Counted from the stretch's first letter, positions 1 through 13,143 are shown. The stretch: DNA of 14,450 nucleotides from Candidatus Sumerlaeota bacterium (GCA_007136585.1 SLGR01000112.1:1-14450), one strand, 5' to 3'. Program-made: numbers and translations. The notes: generated by a model from the letters alone, not told the origin.

Positions 1-266
1 GGCAGGGCTCTTACAGCAAGCTCAAAGGCCGAGCAGAGCCCTTCTACAGGGATAAAGACTCGCCCTTCTTTAAGTATAATATCAAACTCTTCTTTTATAA
101 CCTGATTGCGGTAAACAAGCTCAACAAAAAAAATCTCGTCTTCCTCTTCGGGAAGTGGGTCAATAAAATCCGGAAAGATACTGTTATTCTGGTAGGTATG
201 AACCGGAAGCGTAAAGGCAAGTAGTATAAGTAAAACCAGCGGTGATAGCTTTATGCCTTTTAAAAT
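1..266 (-). CDS. Outer-membrane usher of a chaperone-usher pilus system, N-terminal part (cut by window edge)
   Basis: About 88 codons are present and the rest lies beyond the left edge. Reading from an in-frame ATT at 264-266, the protein begins with a textbook signal peptide: LKGIK, then a hydrophobic run (PLVLLILLAFTLPVHT), then a mature part with FFVELVYRNQ and RVFIPVEGL. That mature part matches the start of the usher N-terminal domain, which binds chaperone-subunit complexes (PapC/FimD family knowledge). The gene directly before it is a pilus chaperone, which fits. No ATG, GTG or TTG exists in frame after the chaperone stop at 270-272; ATT is preceded by TAAGG at 11 nt, and a CTG at 237-239 is the only other near-cognate candidate, but it cuts the signal peptide. 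Chaperone and usher share one frame, separated by TAA and one codon. The family call is inferred from a short N-terminus plus context. Confidence 0.7.
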   Translation of the reverse strand, partial: MLKGIKLSPLVLLILLAFTLPVHTYQNNSIFPDFIDPLPEEEDEIFFVELVYRNQVIKEEFDIILKEGRVFIPVEGLCSAFELAVRAL

Positions 267-269
267 GAC

Positions 270-1097
270 TTATTTAACCTTAATATACTCTTCAGCCAGA
301 AGCCCACCAACCCCTTCCTCATCCCTGTCGTATCTGTTATAGGTTATTCTGAGATCCCAGCCCCTGTAAACCTCCAGCCCTTCATCCAATTCATCAAGAG
401 CAAGAGTATGCCGGACTCTTGCGCCTGAATATACGACCAGGAAATCTTCCGCCGAGGCTTTTACTGTTTCCCCACTTTCAGGACAGACAAGTGCGGCGGC
501 TACCACACCCCTGAGAGTGCGCTTATCCGCAGAAATATTAAAAATGACTTTCGGCTCCCGTCCGGGACTGAGACTTATATCATCAATACCCGCTGTAAAA
601 GGCGGAGATCCTCTTGTAATCATAATCGGGACTCCCACCCGGGTGGAGAAGGAAATAGTGGTGGAAAAACCATCTTCTTCTTCGGATTCGGATATTTCCG
701 GAGCTTCCGGGACGTTCTGGAAATATATATGAGCCCTGTACTCCCCCTCCTCAAGTCCCTCGGGCATACGGGCCCGGAGCCTTACAAGCTGATGTTCACC
801 CGGATCAAGACTCATTGACCGGGGCATAAACCTTATAAAATCAATAGCAGAGGGGTCTTCATCTCCGGGTCTTTTCTCAACAAGTTCTCCGGTCTCATCC
901 ATATCGGAAAAACTCAGATAGACCCTGAAATTTTCAGAGACCGAACCTGCGTTTGTAACCTTGATACTGGCGGTTCTGTTCCTATCGTCAAGCTCTACAA
1001 GACTTGGCTCCACCTGGACAAGGGCCTCCGCCCTTATCACAGACCCCAACAACAGAATAACAGAAAACCAGAAACCCGCCTTTCTACGGTTTAACAT
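270..1097 (-). CDS. Periplasmic pilus assembly chaperone (PapD-like)
   Basis: Encodes about 275 residues. A signal peptide (MLNRRKAGFWFSVILLLGSVIRAEA) ends in AEA, a good signal peptidase I site. The mature part starts VQVEPSLVELDDRNRTASIKVTN, the usual first strands of a pilus chaperone, followed by SLDPGEHQLVRL and RVGVPIMI, also typical of two Ig-like domains that hold pilin subunits in the periplasm and deliver them to the usher. An acidic loop (SESEEEDG) lies between strands near the middle. I chose ATG at 1095-1097 because GGGAG lies 7 nt upstream and it opens the signal peptide; a TTG at 1143-1145 gives 16 extra residues and a poorer start. It follows the manC-like gene by 54 nt and leads straight into the usher. 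No pilin subunit gene is visible in the window. Confidence 0.82.
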   Translation of the reverse strand: MLNRRKAGFWFSVILLLGSVIRAEALVQVEPSLVELDDRNRTASIKVTNAGSVSENFRVYLSFSDMDETGELVEKRPGDEDPSAIDFIRFMPRSMSLDPGEHQLVRLRARMPEGLEEGEYRAHIYFQNVPEAPEISESEEEDGFSTTISFSTRVGVPIMITRGSPPFTAGIDDISLSPGREPKVIFNISADKRTLRGVVAAALVCPESGETVKASAEDFLVVYSGARVRHTLALDELDEGLEVYRGWDLRITYNRYDRDEEGVGGLLAEEYIKVK

Positions 1098-1151
1098 AAA
1101 TATTCTCCCAAAATGAATTCTAACTGCTTCGGATATCTTTGACAAGTTTTC

Positions 1152-2528
1152 TTACCTTCGGCCGTAATCATCCTCGACTCTTTCTATATCGTCTTCTGAA
1201 ATTTTCTCGCCCGAAGCAAGCTCAAGTATCTCAAGTTCCCCGCTCCCGGTATTCTCGGCCCTGTGCAGGGCCCCGGCGGGTATTCTGACGGTCTCCCCCG
1301 AAACCGTCTCTTTTTTCTCTTCACCTGAGGTAATAAGCCCTTTTCCTTTTATCACCGTCCATACCTCATCCCGGAACTTATGCCTCTGGAGGCTGAGCCT
1401 CTCCCTGGGGGATACAAAAAGAACCTTCACCTTATACCCATCCCCCTCCTCCAGGACCCTGTACCCGCCCCAGGGCCTGTAATCCGTGAGATGGCGCGCG
1501 GCGCGGGGGTCATCTCCCAGCCTCTCCACCAGATCCTTTACCTTCTGCCCCTCTCCCTTTTTAAGAAGAAGCAGGGCATCGGGGGTATCTACGGCAATAA
1601 GGTCCCTTACCCCCGCGGCGCCGACAAGTTTTCCTGACGGGACCTGGAAAAAACATCCGCTCACATCCTCAAGGCAGGTCTCCCCGGAGGAAAAATTTCC
1701 ATCTTCTGCGGCAAGGATCCGGTGAATGGACTCCCAGCTCCCCAGGTCGTCCCATCGCCCGGCAAAAGGGACCACCGCAACCCTGTCGGTCTTCTCCATA
1801 ACGGCGTAATCAATTGATATGCCTGGCAGCTCCCTGTAAACGGACCGGGCCCCCTCCCGGGATATCCTCTCAAACCCCCGGGATATCTCAGGCGCGTGCC
1901 TTTCCATCTCCCGCCTCATAGTTCCCGCCCTGAATACAAAGAGCCCGGCGTTCCAGAAATAACCGCCGCTTTCAAGGTACCCGCGGGCGGTATCCTCATC
2001 GGGTTTCTCCTTAAACTCCTCCACCAGGAACCCTTCCCCGATCTTTTCCTGGGAGCTCTTTATATACCCGTACCCGGTGGCGGGGCGGTCCGGGGTTATC
2101 CCTATAGTGACAATATACCCTTGAGAGGCTACCACGGCAGCCTTAAGAATCGTCTCAGAAAAATCACCCTCCACAACCTGATCCGCCGGAAGGACCGCTA
2201 CTATATCATCATCCTCCATATCAGCTATACCCAGCATAACCGCCGGGGCGGTGTTACGCGAAAGAGGTTCAAGTATCAGGTTTTCCTCACCGAACCCGGG
2301 GTCTTTTTTCCTTATCTCCCGGCTGACCAGGAACCCCGACTCCGCGGATGTCACTACGCGCCTGGAGCCCCCAAACGGTGCGACTCTATCCCAGGCCGCC
2401 TGCAGCAGGCTCTTATCCATACCCGGCCTCAGCATATACTTTGGCCAGGTCCTCCTGCTTAGGGGCCAGAGCCTCTTCCCCATCCCCCCCGCCAGTATAA
2501 CCGTGTTAATTTTCAATTCCCCGCCCAT
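1152..2528 (-). CDS. manC: Mannose-1-phosphate guanylyltransferase / mannose-6-phosphate isomerase (type II, bifunctional)
   Basis: 458 residues, the usual length for the fused type II enzyme, which makes GDP-mannose from mannose 6-phosphate for surface polysaccharides and glycans. Residues 10-25 hold the nucleotidyltransferase signature (VILAGGMGKRLWPLSR) with the K30 that normally follows; other family blocks are LEPLSRNTAPA (87-96), FKEKP (172-176), YFWNAGLFVF (190-199) and WDDLGSWE (259-266). The C-terminal cupin (about 350-445) starts RPWGGY and has LSLQRHKFRDEVW with Q381, H383 and E388, plus H422 in PAGALHRAEN, the expected metal ligands. The motif PKYM replaces the more common PKQF. 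The ATG at 2526-2528 has GGTGA 7 nt upstream. It is the first gene of the leftward cluster with the pilus chaperone and usher; whether it serves that system is inference. The gene symbol reflects family, not proven substrate. Confidence 0.9.
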   Translation of the reverse strand: MGGELKINTVILAGGMGKRLWPLSRRTWPKYMLRPGMDKSLLQAAWDRVAPFGGSRRVVTSAESGFLVSREIRKKDPGFGEENLILEPLSRNTAPAVMLGIADMEDDDIVAVLPADQVVEGDFSETILKAAVVASQGYIVTIGITPDRPATGYGYIKSSQEKIGEGFLVEEFKEKPDEDTARGYLESGGYFWNAGLFVFRAGTMRREMERHAPEISRGFERISREGARSVYRELPGISIDYAVMEKTDRVAVVPFAGRWDDLGSWESIHRILAAEDGNFSSGETCLEDVSGCFFQVPSGKLVGAAGVRDLIAVDTPDALLLLKKGEGQKVKDLVERLGDDPRAARHLTDYRPWGGYRVLEEGDGYKVKVLFVSPRERLSLQRHKFRDEVWTVIKGKGLITSGEEKKETVSGETVRIPAGALHRAENTGSGELEILELASGEKISEDDIERVEDDYGRR

Positions 2529-2562
2529 ATAAGTTCACCGCCTTTCTGTAAGCTCTCGGGAT

Positions 2563-2591
2563 TATTAAGTATTACAGCATTCCGCCGGCAA
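2563..2591 (-). promoter_or_regulatory. Possible sigma70-type promoter for the manC-chaperone-usher cluster
   Basis: On the minus strand TTGCCG (2586-2591) and TTAATA (2563-2568) are separated by 17 nt, about 35 nt before the manC start. Each box matches the consensus only in part, so this is a candidate only. Confidence 0.35.
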
Positions 2592-2654
2592 GTCCGAAAT
2601 TCAGTAAAATAATAGAAAATTGCGCCTTAAAAAGCAAAACAGGCAGAACCGTCT

Positions 2655-2671
2655 CGGCTCCCCCGGAGCCG
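2655..2671. repeat. Perfect inverted repeat upstream of the AI-2E gene promoter
   Basis: CGGCTCC and GGAGCCG (7 bp arms) flank a 3-nt CCC. It ends 3 nt before the -35 box at 2675. It could be an operator or a stem-loop. The sequence that follows (GATTTGATTT) is only moderately T-rich, and no rightward gene lies before it, so a terminator is less likely. Confidence 0.45.
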
Positions 2672-2674
2672 GAT

Positions 2675-2703
2675 TTGATTTATCCCGGCAACGGAAGTAT
2701 AAT
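2675..2703 (+). promoter_or_regulatory. Promoter for the AI-2E transporter / phospholipase D operon
   Basis: TTGATT (2675-2680), 17-nt spacer, TATAAT (2698-2703), placed 22 nt before the ATG at 2726. The -10 box is a perfect match and the -35 box matches in four of six positions. Confidence 0.65.
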
Positions 2704-2725
2704 TCTATCCGGAGATTGAGCAATT

Positions 2726-3796
2726 ATGAAAAAGTCAGGAAACATCTATATAAAAATAATAGCGACCGCCTCGGGGTTTGCGATAGCCGCGGCTATCGTA
2801 TACGGGCTTATGATAGCCCAGCACCTGATGGTGCCGTTTGTGTTCGCCTTTCTTCTCTGGTACCTGATAAATACCGCCGAGAAGGCCCTTGGCCGGGTCC
2901 GCTTGAAAGGGTTCTCAATGCCCAGATGGCTGAGGATATTTATTGCCCTTGTAATACTTGCTATGGCCTTTAACCTGGTAGCGGAGATACTTGCGACAAA
3001 CGTCACCCGGATAATAGATTCGGCCCCCTCTTACCAGAGGAACCTGGAGAGGCTGCTTATGGACCTGCCGTTCGGGATGGAACCCGAGGAGATACCGGCC
3101 CTGACCTGGATAACCCAGGAGTTCAATATCGGAAGGTTTATGCAGCGGGCGGCTATGGAGTTCGCCGGTATCCTCGGAAACCTGGGGCTGATACTTATCT
3201 ACCTGATATTTCTCTTCCTTGAGCAGCGCTATTTTGACACAAAACTCCAGATGGCCTCTTCCAGTAAAAAGAAATACAGGTTCGTTAAAGAGATACTCTC
3301 GGAAGTGGACAAGGATATCAGGCGTTACGTGGGGGTAAAGACTCTTCTTAGCCTGGCCACAGCCGCGGGGTCCTGGCTGATAATGAGGGGAGTGGGCCTT
3401 GAGTTTGCAAGCTTCTGGGCCCTTCTTATATTCATATTCAACTTCATTCCGAATATCGGCTCGCTTATAGCCACGATTATGCCGGTAATCCTGGCCCTCC
3501 TTCAGTTTGAGACCACCAGGCCGGCTCTCATCATATTCCTGGGGGTAGGAGCCCTGCAGTTTACCATAGGAAACTTCATAGACCCGGCTCTCCTGGGGAA
3601 ATCCCTAAACGTGAGCCCCCTGGCCATAATACTCTCGCTGGTTTTCTGGGGGACAATATGGAAAATACCGGGAATGTTCCTTTCGGTTCCCATAACCGTA
3701 ATAATCATAATAATTTTAAACAGTTTTGACCGCACGCGTTGGGTAGCGCAAATGCTCTCAAAGGACGGCTCATTAAAAAGCCTTCATACCTCCTGA
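2726..3796 (+). CDS. AI-2E family transporter (PF01594-type membrane protein)
   Basis: 356 residues with the hydrophobic pattern of this family: helices near 11-29, 34-52 and 69-91, a soluble stretch to about 145, a helix at 148-167, a cytoplasmic charged stretch, then a run of helices from about 205 to 330. Family-typical blocks are FIFNFIPNIGSLIATIMPV (236-254) and NFIDPALLGKSLNVSPLAI (283-301), with FWGTIW at 308-313. Members include the AI-2 exporter TqsA, but many others move other substrates (some act as Na+/H+ antiporters), so the cargo here is unknown. The ATG is 11 nt after a GGAG. The gene has its own promoter, and its last 25 nt overlap the next gene when that one is read from ATT at 3772, which suggests coupled translation. 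Confidence 0.88.
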   Translation: MKKSGNIYIKIIATASGFAIAAAIVYGLMIAQHLMVPFVFAFLLWYLINTAEKALGRVRLKGFSMPRWLRIFIALVILAMAFNLVAEILATNVTRIIDSAPSYQRNLERLLMDLPFGMEPEEIPALTWITQEFNIGRFMQRAAMEFAGILGNLGLILIYLIFLFLEQRYFDTKLQMASSSKKKYRFVKEILSEVDKDIRRYVGVKTLLSLATAAGSWLIMRGVGLEFASFWALLIFIFNFIPNIGSLIATIMPVILALLQFETTRPALIIFLGVGALQFTIGNFIDPALLGKSLNVSPLAIILSLVFWGTIWKIPGMFLSVPITVIIIIILNSFDRTRWVAQMLSKDGSLKSLHTS

Positions 3797-5322
3797 CAGG
3801 TACTCTTCTTTTTCTGCTTATCCCCGCAGCAGCGGGGTGCAGGCTCCCCGGACTTGAGGTGCGGGACCCCTCCCCGCTTCCCTGCCTTGAGGAATCCAGC
3901 CGGAGCTCCCTGGGGAAAGCAGTTTCGGCCCTCTCCGAAGGCAGAGAGGGCAAATCCGGCATATACTCTCTTGAGAACCCCCGCCGGGCCTTTGCCGCTC
4001 GGATACTTCTGGCTGAGAAAGCAGAGCTTACCCTTGACCTGCAGTACTTTATCTGGCGCAGGGACAAGACAGGGATACTCCTTCTTGAGGCCCTGAGGCA
4101 GGCCGGTGAACGGGGGGTCCGGGTCCGCCTTCTTCTGGACGACCTCGGAACCAACGGCCTGGACAGGGAACTGGCGGCCCTGAACTCCCACCCCAATATT
4201 GAGGTCCGTCTCTTTAACCCCTTTGCCTACCGGCGGTTCAAATGGATCGGGTTCTTCACTGATTTTCACCGCGCCAACCGCAGGATGCATAATAAATCCT
4301 TTACAGCGGATAACAGCGTCGCCATAGTAGGCGGGCGCAACGTGGGGGACGATTACTTCGGCGCGGGAGACGGGCTGATGTGGATTGATCTTGACGTGCT
4401 GGTCGCGGGCCCCGCCGCCACGGATACCGCCGGGGATTTCGCGCTCTACTGGGATAGCCGCTCTGCCTGGCCCGCCGGGAAGGTCCTCCCCGCTCCCGGA
4501 GAAGGGGATCTTAAGGAGTTATCACGTATGGCATCGGAGCTTAAATCCGGACCCGGCGCGGAGGAGTTCCTGGAATCGGTAGAATCATCGGAGTTCATTG
4601 AGGAACTTATACTGGATAAACTTGATATGGAATGGGCCCCGGCGCGCATTGTAAGCGATGACCCGGCAAAAGGGGTCGGGGAGGCGGAGCCCGAGGGGCT
4701 TCTCCTTGCCCAGCTTGAGGAAGTAATCGGGCTTCCTTCGGAAAACCTCTGCCTGATATCGCCCTATTTTGTCCCGACCCGGGAAGGGGCCGCGGCTTTC
4801 AGCGGCATATCGGAGGAAGGAGTAAGGGTGCGCATTCTCACGAACTCCCTGGCAGCCACGAACTTCTTAAGCGTCCACGCCGGTTACGCAAGAAGCCGCA
4901 GGAAGCTTCTTGAGGCCGGGGTGGAGCTCTATGAGAAACGCCCGGTACAAATCACCCGGGAAAGGCAGGAGCCGGGGCCCATAGCAGGCTCGGTAACCAG
5001 TCTCCACGCAAAGACATTCGCGGTTGACTGCAAGAGGGTCTTTGTAGGGTCGCTAAACTTCAACCCCCGTTCGGTGAACCTTGATACCGAACTGGGACTT
5101 GTCATTGAAAGCCCCCGCCTGGCGGAGAAAATACAGGAGGCCTTTGATAGCATTATCCCGGCAAACTCCTACCGTGTTGACCTGGATAAGCGCGGGAGAC
5201 TCTTCTGGACAGGGACAACCCGGGGCAGAGCCAGTAAATACCGGAGAGAACCCGGAGCCGGGTTCCTGAAACGCATCGGCGCCTGCCTCCTCTCATACCT
5301 GCCTGTTGAATGGGTTCTTTAG
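3772..5322 (+). CDS. Lipoprotein of the phospholipase D / cardiolipin synthase family (ClsC-like)
   Basis: 516 residues from ATT at 3772-3774. Two complete HKD motifs are visible, HNKSFTAD (173-180) and HAKTFAVD (412-419), each followed by the usual GG/GS-x-N element (VGGRN, VGSLNFNPRS). Such enzymes use both histidines to transfer phosphatidyl groups; LQYFIWRRDKTG, RVRLLLDDLGTNGLD and EVRLFNPFAYRR closely resemble the ClsC/YmdC-type branch. The N-terminus KKPSYLLTGTLLFLLIPAAAGC is a lipoprotein signal ending at Cys23, so the protein is probably membrane anchored outside the cytoplasm. Start: a TTG at 3739 is in frame but has no ribosome binding site and puts 11 residues before the lysines, while ATT 3772 has AAAGGA 6 nt upstream and opens the signal peptide at KK. 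The activity (cardiolipin synthase versus phospholipase) is inferred. Its 3' end overlaps the opposing VanZ-like gene. Confidence 0.87.
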   Translation: MKKPSYLLTGTLLFLLIPAAAGCRLPGLEVRDPSPLPCLEESSRSSLGKAVSALSEGREGKSGIYSLENPRRAFAARILLAEKAELTLDLQYFIWRRDKTGILLLEALRQAGERGVRVRLLLDDLGTNGLDRELAALNSHPNIEVRLFNPFAYRRFKWIGFFTDFHRANRRMHNKSFTADNSVAIVGGRNVGDDYFGAGDGLMWIDLDVLVAGPAATDTAGDFALYWDSRSAWPAGKVLPAPGEGDLKELSRMASELKSGPGAEEFLESVESSEFIEELILDKLDMEWAPARIVSDDPAKGVGEAEPEGLLLAQLEEVIGLPSENLCLISPYFVPTREGAAAFSGISEEGVRVRILTNSLAATNFLSVHAGYARSRRKLLEAGVELYEKRPVQITRERQEPGPIAGSVTSLHAKTFAVDCKRVFVGSLNFNPRSVNLDTELGLVIESPRLAEKIQEAFDSIIPANSYRVDLDKRGRLFWTGTTRGRASKYRREPGAGFLKRIGACLLSYLPVEWVL

Positions 5323-5832
5323 CTTCTCTCTGTTAAGTATAATATACAGTATGATCCCGGCCCCCGCGCAGACGGCGTTTACCAGGACATCCTCGAAATC
5401 CCCTACCCTGTCGGGAAGGTAATCCTGGAAGAGCTCGTCCAGGACGGCCCAGGCCAGGGCTATCTCTGTCCCGGTACGGACCGAGAAGAGCGAGACCGAG
5501 AGGTACCCCAAGAGCCCGAACAGGGGTATATGGTACCAGCGCTCGGGATGTGTCCTCAGGTAATACATAAGCCCGCCGGCTAAAAGCCCCATCCAGAGCA
5601 GGTGAAGAAGACCCCTAAATCCGAGACGCCGCAGGAGCAGGACCCCGGCAGCCAGGATAAGCAGCCCCGTCACCCCTCCCAGGAGCCACACTATACCCGG
5701 AACGCCTATCCAGTCAGTAAGAAAATGCTGCAGAGAGCGGCCATAGTAGGATATAACGGGTATGGCCAGAAGCACCGCCGCCCAGGAGACAGCGGTCAGA
5801 GGCCTTCTTTTAAATTTCTCAGAGATTATAAT
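5293..5832 (-). CDS. VanZ-like family membrane protein
   Basis: About 179 residues from ATT at 5830-5832. Roughly five hydrophobic segments are visible: WAAVLLAIPVISYYG near the start, IVWLLGGVTGLLILAAGVLLL, GLLHLLWMGLLAGGLMYYL, IPLFGLLGYLSVSLFSV and AGAGIILYIIL at the end. The family hallmark is DELFQDYLPDRVGDFEDVLVN, an acidic pair with a later Asp and Asn, close to the DE-hxQ-...-R-G-D-...-D-xxxN pattern of VanZ-like proteins. VanZ itself gives low-level teicoplanin resistance, but the role of most relatives is unknown. A GTG at 5773-5775 would begin inside the first helix and drop the charged lead (EKFKRRP), so I prefer ATT, which has GGAGGAG 8-10 nt upstream. The upstream gene's TAG is in the same frame, one codon before this ATT. 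Confidence 0.75.
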   Translation of the reverse strand: MIISEKFKRRPLTAVSWAAVLLAIPVISYYGRSLQHFLTDWIGVPGIVWLLGGVTGLLILAAGVLLLRRLGFRGLLHLLWMGLLAGGLMYYLRTHPERWYHIPLFGLLGYLSVSLFSVRTGTEIALAWAVLDELFQDYLPDRVGDFEDVLVNAVCAGAGIILYIILNREKLKNPFNRQV

Positions 5833-5835
5833 TTT

Positions 5836-6393
5836 CTACTCTCCTCCTGCGGGTGGCGGGATATCCCAGATGGCGGCCACGGTCTCACGGTTAAACCTCG
5901 CAACCATCAGCCCCATCCTGCGATCTCCCCTGTTAAACTCAGCGGACCTCATATTTTCCAGGCGCACCGGGAAAGACTGCATCATATCGGGGAGCTCTTC
6001 AGAGAACCCGAACTCCTTTGAGACGTTCCATCCGTCATTCAGCAGGTATTCAAGGAACCTGCGGTATTTTCCCTGGGGGTCGTCATCGGAGACGCATATC
6101 TTTACGTAAAGGCCGCCGCGGGGCATCTTTACTTCATAGGCCCTCTCAAGGTATTCCGCAGGCAGGGAGTCCCCGACGGGGGTTCCGGCCATCTCCAGAA
6201 CACGGGATACCTCAATGTTAAAGAGCCTCATAGCGCCGGGAATAACTCTGTGCCAGTTGAAATAAGCGTACAGGCCTGTAAAGAGCAGAAAGAACCCTAT
6301 TCCGAAAACCCCTATAAGGCATCCCGAAAGACTCCCACCATTGTTTGCTCTTATTTTTTCGAATTGAATATCCCCGGATTTAAGTTTCTGCAT
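5836..6393 (-). CDS. Single-pass membrane protein of unknown function
   Basis: 185 residues, not recognised. A short polar N-terminus is followed by one strongly hydrophobic helix (about 24-45, GCLIGVFGIGFFLLFTGLYAY), then a soluble domain of about 140 residues that would lie outside the cytoplasm if the helix is a signal anchor. That domain has alternating charged and aromatic stretches (YEVKMPRGGLYVKICV, FLEYLLNDGWNVSKEFGF, MGLMVARFNRETVAAIWDI) that look like a small alpha/beta fold, and ends PPPAGGE. ATG at 6391-6393 follows AAGGGG with a good spacer. It lies between the YceK-like gene and the VanZ-like gene on the same strand; its last codons supply the GGAGGAG ribosome binding site of the VanZ-like gene, so the two are probably co-translated. 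Confidence 0.7.
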   Translation of the reverse strand: MQKLKSGDIQFEKIRANNGGSLSGCLIGVFGIGFFLLFTGLYAYFNWHRVIPGAMRLFNIEVSRVLEMAGTPVGDSLPAEYLERAYEVKMPRGGLYVKICVSDDDPQGKYRRFLEYLLNDGWNVSKEFGFSEELPDMMQSFPVRLENMRSAEFNRGDRRMGLMVARFNRETVAAIWDIPPPAGGE

Positions 6394-11085: not shown

Positions 11086-13143
11086 CTATTCTTCTCTTTC
11101 CGCTTCCACCGCCAAAGCTTCCACCATACCTTCGGCCTCATCCGGCATTACAAGCACCCCTTTGAATATATCTATTTCCGCCGCCGGATCCTCCAGGCGC
11201 ATTTTATTAAAGTATCTGCTGTTTTCGCGGACCCACCTGACCGGGTCTGTCCGGACCAGCCCCGGCTCCAGGGGGAAAAACTCGGAGCTTTTTACTATAT
11301 CCTCCCCTATCCCTTCCGGGGGAGTTACGTAAAGAACTATGCTCTTATCTTCTTTTCTGAAACCGAAATCCCACCTGTGGTCTTTAACCGGAAGAGACTC
11401 TTCCGTTTCCTTAAATAACTCTTTCCGTCTCTCATCTTTAACCGGGGTCTCATCCCTGACCTCCATAACCAGTTCACTCTCCCCCTGTTGAGATATACAT
11501 ATATCCATACAGGCCAGCCAGGAAGCCTCAGCCCTGAACCTAACTTCTTTTCCCGTTTCAATATTCTCCGGCACAGTTATTTTTCTTGAAAGAAGCAGGT
11601 ACTCATCGTGTCCGAAAGTATAAAAAGGGCCCTCTTCAAAACGCTTCGGGCGGGGCCACCTGATATCGCCGGCCGGGAACCCTTCCGGGATATCCCATTT
11701 AATCCGGGGCTCAACTCCGGAGTCCCCGGGGTTAATCCAGTATATATGCCACCCCTCTTTCATCTCAAAGAGCATTCCTATATAAAAAGAACTCCCCGGC
11801 CGGATCCACTCAGTATCGGATACAAGTTCTGCCGTTGAGGGTTCTTTTTCGGTTTCTTTTTCATCAGCATCCTCATATATCCCGGTCCGAAGGTACCGGT
11901 CTACCCTGCCCGCGGTATCAATTAGTTCTTCTGAAGAAACAAACCCCACCTTTCTTGCAGGGGATATTTCCTCCCCCTCTTCATCTGTAAAGATTATAGT
12001 GGGGACTCCCGCTATATCATACTTCTGCCGCAGCTGCCGCGAGCGGGGGGAATCATAGCGGGTAAGGTCCACTTTCATAAGGTTTAAGTTTTCCAGCGCC
12101 TCAATGACCCGGGGATCCGTAAAAGTCCTTATATCCATCTCCAGACAGGGAACGCACCAGTCGGCGGAGAAGTAGATAACCGAAGGGGTATCTATTTCCG
12201 TATCGTACTCTCCCCATTTAGCCGCAGGGGCCCTGCCCGCCCTGAAGAGAAAAAAGGCGGCAGCTATAAACAAGGCTCCCGTTAAATATTTAATGTATAT
12301 AAATACTCTTTTATTTATACCGCCTTTAGCTATAACTCCCAGGTATACTCCTCCCGCCGCCAAGACTGCGGGGATAAGTATAAATACAATGTTGCCTCCT
12401 ATCAGCAGGGAGAAATAGAAGAAGCCTACCGCCAGAAGTATTACCCCCAGAGCTTTCCTGACCCATACCATCCAGGTCCCCGATTTGGGGAGCCTGGGGA
12501 TCAGGGACGAGAATGTTCCCAGTATAAGGTAGGGAAAACCCAGTCCAAGGCTGAGGATAAAGAAAGAAGTGAAACCAAAGACGGGATCGCCTCTCTGGCC
12601 TACAGCGGTCATAAGGGCTATGACCGGAGGGCCTATACAGGGAGCGGCAAATATTCCCACCATCAGCCCGGAAAGATATACTCCCGCGTACCCGGCCCCG
12701 CCCCTGCCCGAAAATTTGCTTAGAATACGGGAGGGAGGCTGTATCTCCCACAGGCCGAACATACTCAGGGATAGGAGAATAAACAGTACCCCGATTCCCG
12801 CAAGAACAGTTCCCGACTGCATTATTCCCCCGAAAAGCCCCCCGGTAAACGCGGCCGCCACTCCCAGAATACTGTACATCGTGGCTATTCCGAGCACATA
12901 CCCGACAGCCCTGGTTATTATCTTAAACCTGCTCTTTTCTTTACCCGTCCCGAAGACTGCCAGGGTAACGGTAAGCATCGGATATACACAGGGGGTCAGG
13001 TTCAGGGCCAATCCCAGGAGGAATAAACCTGCCGCAGCGGATAACCCAAGCCCCGCCTCTGCCGGGAACGCCTCAACGCCAAAGACCTCCGCGGAGGTAA
13101 AGAGGAGAAACAAAAGCAACCCTGTAATTTTAAATTGTTTCAT
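11086..13143 (-). CDS. DsbD-family thiol:disulfide interchange protein with rearranged domain order
   Basis: 685 residues. After a signal peptide, residues 30-300 form the eight-helix DsbD/CcdA membrane domain with its two cysteine motifs TPCVYPM (C52) and APCIGPP (C169), which carry electrons across the inner membrane. Next comes a thioredoxin-like domain (about 310-420) with SADWCVPC (C330, C333) and cis-proline GVPTIIF. Residues 440-685 match the N-terminal domain found in ScsB/DsbD-type proteins (GWHIYWINPGDSGVEPRIKW, FGHDEYLLL, WLACMDICI with C545 and C549). In DsbD/ScsB that domain normally comes first, so here the order is beta-gamma-alpha. The ATG at 13141-13143 has only a weak ribosome binding site (AGGT about 13 nt upstream). 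It heads an operon with the exported redoxin. Likely task: supply reducing power to periplasmic thiol proteins. Confidence 0.88.
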   Translation of the reverse strand: MKQFKITGLLLFLLFTSAEVFGVEAFPAEAGLGLSAAAGLFLLGLALNLTPCVYPMLTVTLAVFGTGKEKSRFKIITRAVGYVLGIATMYSILGVAAAFTGGLFGGIMQSGTVLAGIGVLFILLSLSMFGLWEIQPPSRILSKFSGRGGAGYAGVYLSGLMVGIFAAPCIGPPVIALMTAVGQRGDPVFGFTSFFILSLGLGFPYLILGTFSSLIPRLPKSGTWMVWVRKALGVILLAVGFFYFSLLIGGNIVFILIPAVLAAGGVYLGVIAKGGINKRVFIYIKYLTGALFIAAAFFLFRAGRAPAAKWGEYDTEIDTPSVIYFSADWCVPCLEMDIRTFTDPRVIEALENLNLMKVDLTRYDSPRSRQLRQKYDIAGVPTIIFTDEEGEEISPARKVGFVSSEELIDTAGRVDRYLRTGIYEDADEKETEKEPSTAELVSDTEWIRPGSSFYIGMLFEMKEGWHIYWINPGDSGVEPRIKWDIPEGFPAGDIRWPRPKRFEEGPFYTFGHDEYLLLSRKITVPENIETGKEVRFRAEASWLACMDICISQQGESELVMEVRDETPVKDERRKELFKETEESLPVKDHRWDFGFRKEDKSIVLYVTPPEGIGEDIVKSSEFFPLEPGLVRTDPVRWVRENSRYFNKMRLEDPAAEIDIFKGVLVMPDEAEGMVEALAVEAEREE

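Follow-up and report, generated by a model that had tools for sequence, protein, structure and literature searches.

Three genes in a 14,450-nt window, which is the entire contig C40 of a 1.88 Mb genome in 257 contigs (G000), appear to begin at AUU, AUA or AUC (collectively AUH) instead of AUG, GUG or UUG. We hold with reasonable confidence that these starts would be served by an ordinary initiator tRNA with the help of Shine-Dalgarno (SD) sites and coupling to the upstream gene, that AUH codons would open 1.5-2% of the genes of this order, and that a relaxed initiation factor IF3 is possibly involved. A scan for relatives of IF3 identified the source organism as an Elusimicrobiota MAG whose order mates are 'Elusimicrobia bacterium' MAGs, including the same-family genome G001 (PWEK01).

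The firmest of the three cases is a VanZ-like membrane protein gene (5293-5832, minus strand; VanZ, E = 1.7e-7), which very likely has a non-canonical start. Upstream of it, in the same frame, lies a gene for a 185-aa protein without a Pfam family (5836-6393, minus strand), whose TAG (5838-5836) ends 3 nt before the ATT, so that the VanZ frame opens with this TAG followed by AAA ATT ATA ATC. The preliminary description had assigned the start to the in-frame ATT at 5832-5830 for want of a good canonical codon, and this codon is present as described. The first canonical codon, GTG 5775, is codon 20 and lies inside the first membrane helix, while a homologue from the same phylum aligns from codon 7 (61% identity, E = 9e-58), and homologue alignments contain ~13 conserved residues upstream of the GTG. 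Therefore, we conclude from this N-terminal conservation that GTG 5775 is not the start. Orthologues in G001, G012 and G014 begin with ATG at about the same place; in a gap-free alignment the ATG of the G001 orthologue falls on the ATC two codons past the ATT, so the VanZ start could be ATT, ATA or ATC, all of which are AUH. The SD site (GGAGGAGA region / CAGGAGGAGAG; 5841-5848, minus strand), in the arrangement GGAGGA-9-ATT, is at a working distance, and this spacing favours ATT. An AUH start is retained, and the exact codon could be any of these three.

A non-canonical start is also very likely in a fragment at the contig edge (3-266, minus strand), the 5' end of a gene for a secreted protein with a signal-peptide-like N-terminus, which runs for 88-89 codons to the edge. 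Its frame contains no ATG, GTG or TTG anywhere in the 89 codons to the contig edge, and the proposed ATT is in frame at 266-264, with a weak SD site, AAGG, 12 nt upstream. The upstream gene (270-1145, minus strand) ends with TAA at 272-270, which is followed by GTC and then by the ATT, all in the same frame. The fragment had been named an usher, a name without Pfam support, as no Pfam family matched it, and the supposed PapD-like chaperone upstream of it gave only a marginal PapD_N match (E = 0.0013, below the cut-off); we keep 'usher' as a label.

The third gene encodes a phospholipase D-family (PLD) lipoprotein (3772-5322, plus strand; PLDc_2, E = 9.5e-31) and follows an AI-2E family transporter gene (2726-3796, plus strand), which it would overlap by 25 nt when started at ATT 3772. 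This ATT directly precedes the lipoprotein signal KKPSYLL...AAAGC with its lipobox AAGC, and the SD site AAAGGA (3760-3765, plus strand) lies 6 nt before it. The claim that this gene has no good canonical start holds only in part: the ATT has its SD site, but TTG 3739, 11 codons upstream and without an SD site, is in frame and would give a usable long signal peptide. The orthologue from the same family (G001), 57% identical, starts at ATG. We regard the arrangement AAAGGA-6 nt-ATT as better than the possible TTG, which makes a non-canonical start in PLD probable.

All three in-frame ATT codons sit where they had first been placed; the underlying observation holds, and most of the N-terminal assignments made from it are correct. 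The purine-rich upstream sequence ascribed to all three is a good SD site in PLD and VanZ, but a weak one in the 'usher'. Each has a different upstream gene, so that they count as three separate cases. In no orthologue was any of the three starts conserved as AUH. Three of the 14 genes in the window compare with ~1.6% in the remaining sample (p ~0.001), in a window that was picked for this very feature. As had been anticipated, gene callers limited to ATG, GTG and TTG would misplace or miss such starts.

Since start-codon models are blind to a class that makes up 1-2% of genes, we chose to list individual genes whose frame, from the preceding in-frame stop up to clearly coding sequence, contains no ATG, GTG or TTG. 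The sample comprised 538 kb of G000 (29% of the genome), 472 kb of G001, and, as controls, 263 kb of a genome from the same phylum but a different family (G008), together with 300 kb of E. coli K-12. An automatic rule, which called a gene when no canonical codon occurred before codon 10 and starting at the first one would cost at least 6 nats of coding score, returned 5 of 358 genes in G000 (one a likely frameshift, L075), 6 of 335 in G001 (one false) and 1 of 227, a false one, in G008. The E. coli sample, in which infC had been placed deliberately, gave 3 of 221 (infC, the prfB frameshift and a pseudogene), with infC the only true AUH case. Two lysine-rich upstream zones (G001 L149 18774 and G008 L194 6750) were dropped as false hits. 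Also set aside, as a likely frameshift, was L075 (5604-6110), a helix-turn-helix/response-regulator orphan in which the first helix of the helix-turn-helix and receiver protein seems to lie in another upstream frame, the mark of a natural frameshift or an assembly error. The automatic rule missed E. coli pcnB and is therefore not exhaustive; the fuller list adds cases found by eye with the same logic, and was not drawn up blind.

On this fuller list, G000 contributes the 'usher', VanZ, a lipoprotein/phosphodiesterase gene (L044, where ATA, CTG and ATT are all possible starts), a lipoprotein gene (L077, AAGGAGG-4-ATC) and an exonuclease gene (L129), with PLD as a probable member and a bactofilin gene (L090), a doubtful case in which a strong SD site points at an ATT, as a possible one. 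The candidates in G001 are L149 (AAGGAGGT..ATT, a strong SD site), L146 (AAAGGA-6-ATT), a DUF1538 gene (L140, GAGGAG..ATA), a laccase-domain gene (L110, frame start 5884, minus strand) whose ATA overlaps the upstream TAG as ATAG, a radical SAM gene (L098), L091, whose start may be CTG, and infC, with ATA behind a strong SD site; G008 has none or one. For L129, L098, L044 and L140 the first ATG, GTG or TTG cuts into the Pfam domain. From that codon L140 would lose 25 residues of DUF1538, and, by our own reading of the motifs, the exonuclease would presumably lose its DxE motif, the radical SAM protein the first Cys of CxxxCxxC and L044 a metal-site Asp.

In G000 and G001 together, AUU, AUA or AUC (once perhaps CUG) is needed by 12 of 693 genes, or by 14 with PLD and L090, which suggests that about 1 in 60 genes (1.5-2%) of this Elusimicrobiota group begin with these codons. 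The 12 compare with none of 227 in G008 (p = 0.03), or with one of 227 when its doubtful case is counted (p = 0.13); the automatic cases alone give 9 credible genes in 693 versus none in 227 (p = 0.08). A start-codon model with fixed priors returned mainly ATG (~70%), GTG and TTG, with no genome-wide excess of ATT, and the enrichment of codons behind SD sites likewise gave no ATT excess at genome scale; both are underpowered for an effect of 1-2%. A start-codon EM over all 61 codons drifted to AAA and TTA, which are common early codons, and was uninformative. Counting SD-preceded AUH codons in the zones skipped by canonical starts yielded 5 against 2.9 expected and 6 against 4.2, neither significant. 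Among the 91 reciprocal-best orthologue pairs from outside the window, no gene clearly needed a non-canonical start, and the flags raised by aligning reciprocal-best frames from stop to stop arose where alignments extended into upstream codons and did not mark starts. Overall, the proposal that the lineage uses AUU routinely is too strong, given a share of ~1.5-2% of genes, no ATT excess across the genome and no clear case in the 91 pairs, and it is also too narrow, as AUA and AUC are used too. The idea of a habit extending beyond the window is supported by recurrence in G000 and G001, but not by an ATT excess in the genome scans. What these sequences point to is likely a low-frequency habit of AUH starts that is typical of the lineage and found mostly in cistrons adjoining an upstream stop.

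Within the window the distance from the upstream stop to the start is +3 nt for the 'usher', -25 nt for PLD and +3 nt for VanZ. Among the 14 candidates, 12 start between -25 and +35 nt from a same-strand upstream stop, compared with 57% of canonical genes (p = 0.03), in geometries that include TAA-GTC-ATT, TAG-AAA-ATT, TAA-C-ATT, TAA-T-ATT and ATA overlapping TAG. The suggestion that AUU serves coupled genes is thus right in that most candidates lie just behind an upstream stop, but the enrichment is only mild. In their starts within a few nucleotides of an upstream stop these genes resemble known termination-reinitiation pairs (PMC6728339, PMC12548453); galT and galK are coupled at +3 nt, the same spacing as in the 'usher' and VanZ, and excess IF3 is reported to reduce coupling (PMC12548453). 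The ATAG of the laccase-domain gene is like the ATGA overlap of ordinary coupled pairs. The known pairs, however, use ATG, GTG or TTG, whereas the codons here are AUH.

The preliminary description had called for an inspection of IF3, and the IF3 of this order proved unusual in having lost four arginines of the C-domain that are retained in the majority of other bacteria. At the E. coli positions, the order has S for R99, G, N or K for R112, G or A for R147, and F, Y or Q for R168; for the source organism itself the contig edge leaves only the last 52 codons of infC (on contig C75), in which two of the positions are readable, R147 as G and R168 as F. In the control family and in 30 IF3s from other phyla, positions R147 and R168 mostly carry R or K, with more variation at R99 and R112, and loss of all four arginines occurs in none of these proteins. 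In E. coli, arginines of the IF3 C-domain matter for 30S binding and for start-codon discrimination; a search of the accessible literature for IF3 arginine mutants found nothing relevant. In six order mates infC has an SD site followed by AUA or AUC as its start codon, while in most of the control family it starts with GUG. That infC keeps its AUA start in the order suggests that IF3 still discriminates, and that discrimination has not been abolished. The change in IF3 is possibly linked to the AUH starts, as a correlation across these sequences. An altered initiator tRNA appears unlikely, as the part of the genome scanned contains a normal initiator-type tRNA with a CAU anticodon and a GGG/CCC stem (L113:3306-3382).

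Starts of this kind are established in E. coli, where infC and pcnB begin with AUU, and in S. aureus, where infC begins with AUA; for infC, feedback by IF3 is known. The genes described here share with infC and pcnB an AUH codon behind an SD site and, except in PLD, the lack of a canonical alternative; they would probably also be read by the normal initiator tRNA. The order's own infC is like infC elsewhere in its AUA or AUC start. In contrast to infC and pcnB, which are isolated genes, several unrelated genes per genome are involved here, mostly downstream cistrons. The combination of AUH with a strong SD site also occurs in cvfC1 (AUU) and ccpN (AUA) of Staphylococcus aureus, where start and SD site are conserved among relatives, whereas the orthologues of PLD and VanZ have ATG; AUU and AUA starts with an extended SD site there give ~10% of the output of AUG (PMC13009471). 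A further non-canonical start outside infC is the GTC of sigR in Streptomyces, whose translation is reportedly repressed by IF3 (PMC5472188); there a single regulatory gene with GUC is concerned and repression by IF3 is demonstrated, whereas our argument is drawn from sequence. Individual AUU and AUA starts are thus already known as rarities, and what we describe is therefore a variant of a known phenomenon, in which the apparent frequency and the change in IF3 are new.

We propose that the ordinary CAU initiator tRNA reads the near-cognate AUH codons by mispairing at the third codon position, and that the SD site and, mostly, a ribosome fresh from the upstream cistron would set the codon in the P site, where reinitiation within a few nucleotides of a stop may tolerate a weak codon. 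Such starts would be more frequent in this order than in E. coli, possibly because an IF3 without its C-domain arginines rejects AUH less strictly. We infer, in this scheme, initiation at these codons, coupling as the driver, a relaxed IF3 and a low yield. A bolder version, which we put forward tentatively and think less probable than its negation, is that an IF3 with a stripped RNA-binding face would have added AUU, AUA and AUC to the start codons as a fourth class, serving at least ~2% of genes and mainly coupled cistrons.

Alternatively, two or three of these starts may be real but of the isolated infC and pcnB kind, with no special rate in the lineage and the window a lucky cluster. This explanation, which we consider rather unlikely, is in keeping with the models that gave no ATT excess, the 91 pairs without a clear case, the statistically weak contrast with G008 and the sporadic AUU and AUA starts of S. 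aureus and E. coli (PMC13009471). The number of candidates, however, argues against it: G000 has at least 5 in 358 genes and G001 at least 7 in 335. E. coli is assumed to have 4 non-canonical starts of this kind in ~4300 genes, and against this assumed rate the difference is marked (p = 5e-8).

It is improbable, in our view, that the starts have simply been misread, with PLD beginning at TTG 3739 and the other genes damaged or mis-assembled, their true starts having disappeared through mutation or an error in sequencing. The TTG is in frame with a usable long signal peptide and the orphan L075 does resemble a frameshifted gene, but there is no ATG, GTG or TTG in any frame near the VanZ and 'usher' starts, and therefore a single indel would not restore them; moreover, the frames are otherwise intact and the controls contain few such artefacts. 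Readthrough of a stop codon would make the 'usher' and VanZ fusions with their in-frame upstream genes, from which one stop in TAA-GTC-ATT and TAG-AAA-ATT separates them. We regard this as the least credible explanation of all, as both frames continue past the stop with a signal peptide or first helix, VanZ has an SD site before its start codon, the VanZ orthologues carry their own ATG, and most other cases lie at a different distance or in a different frame relative to the upstream gene. If AUH starts are indeed a habit of this order and its IF3 has been relaxed, they would represent a natural joint shift of start-codon choice and of the factor that polices it, and replacing the gene in E. 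coli could then reveal what single IF3 arginines do. Gene callers limited to ATG, GTG and TTG would then lose N-termini, often signal peptides, in 1-2% of the genes of such lineages.

Several other features of the window and its genome were observed. The gene at 11086-13143 (minus strand) of the window encodes a DsbD-like protein with a permuted domain order, in which a membrane domain (38-243) comes first, a thioredoxin domain (314-408) second, and the DsbD N-terminal domain (449-559) last, at the C-terminus. A dispersed repeat of ~130-160 nt, its copies mostly 77-89% alike and partly self-complementary, occurs at no fewer than eight loci in the sampled 29% of G000 (L085:5349-5513, L038:2662-2814, L012, L004, L087, L119, L036, L072 and L017). 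It was not found in the sampled parts of G001 or G008, the copies in L038 and L085 match no Rfam family, and it is possibly a small non-autonomous mobile element. L085 also carries a c-di-GMP-I riboswitch (3450-3534, plus strand) upstream of a 545-codon frame.
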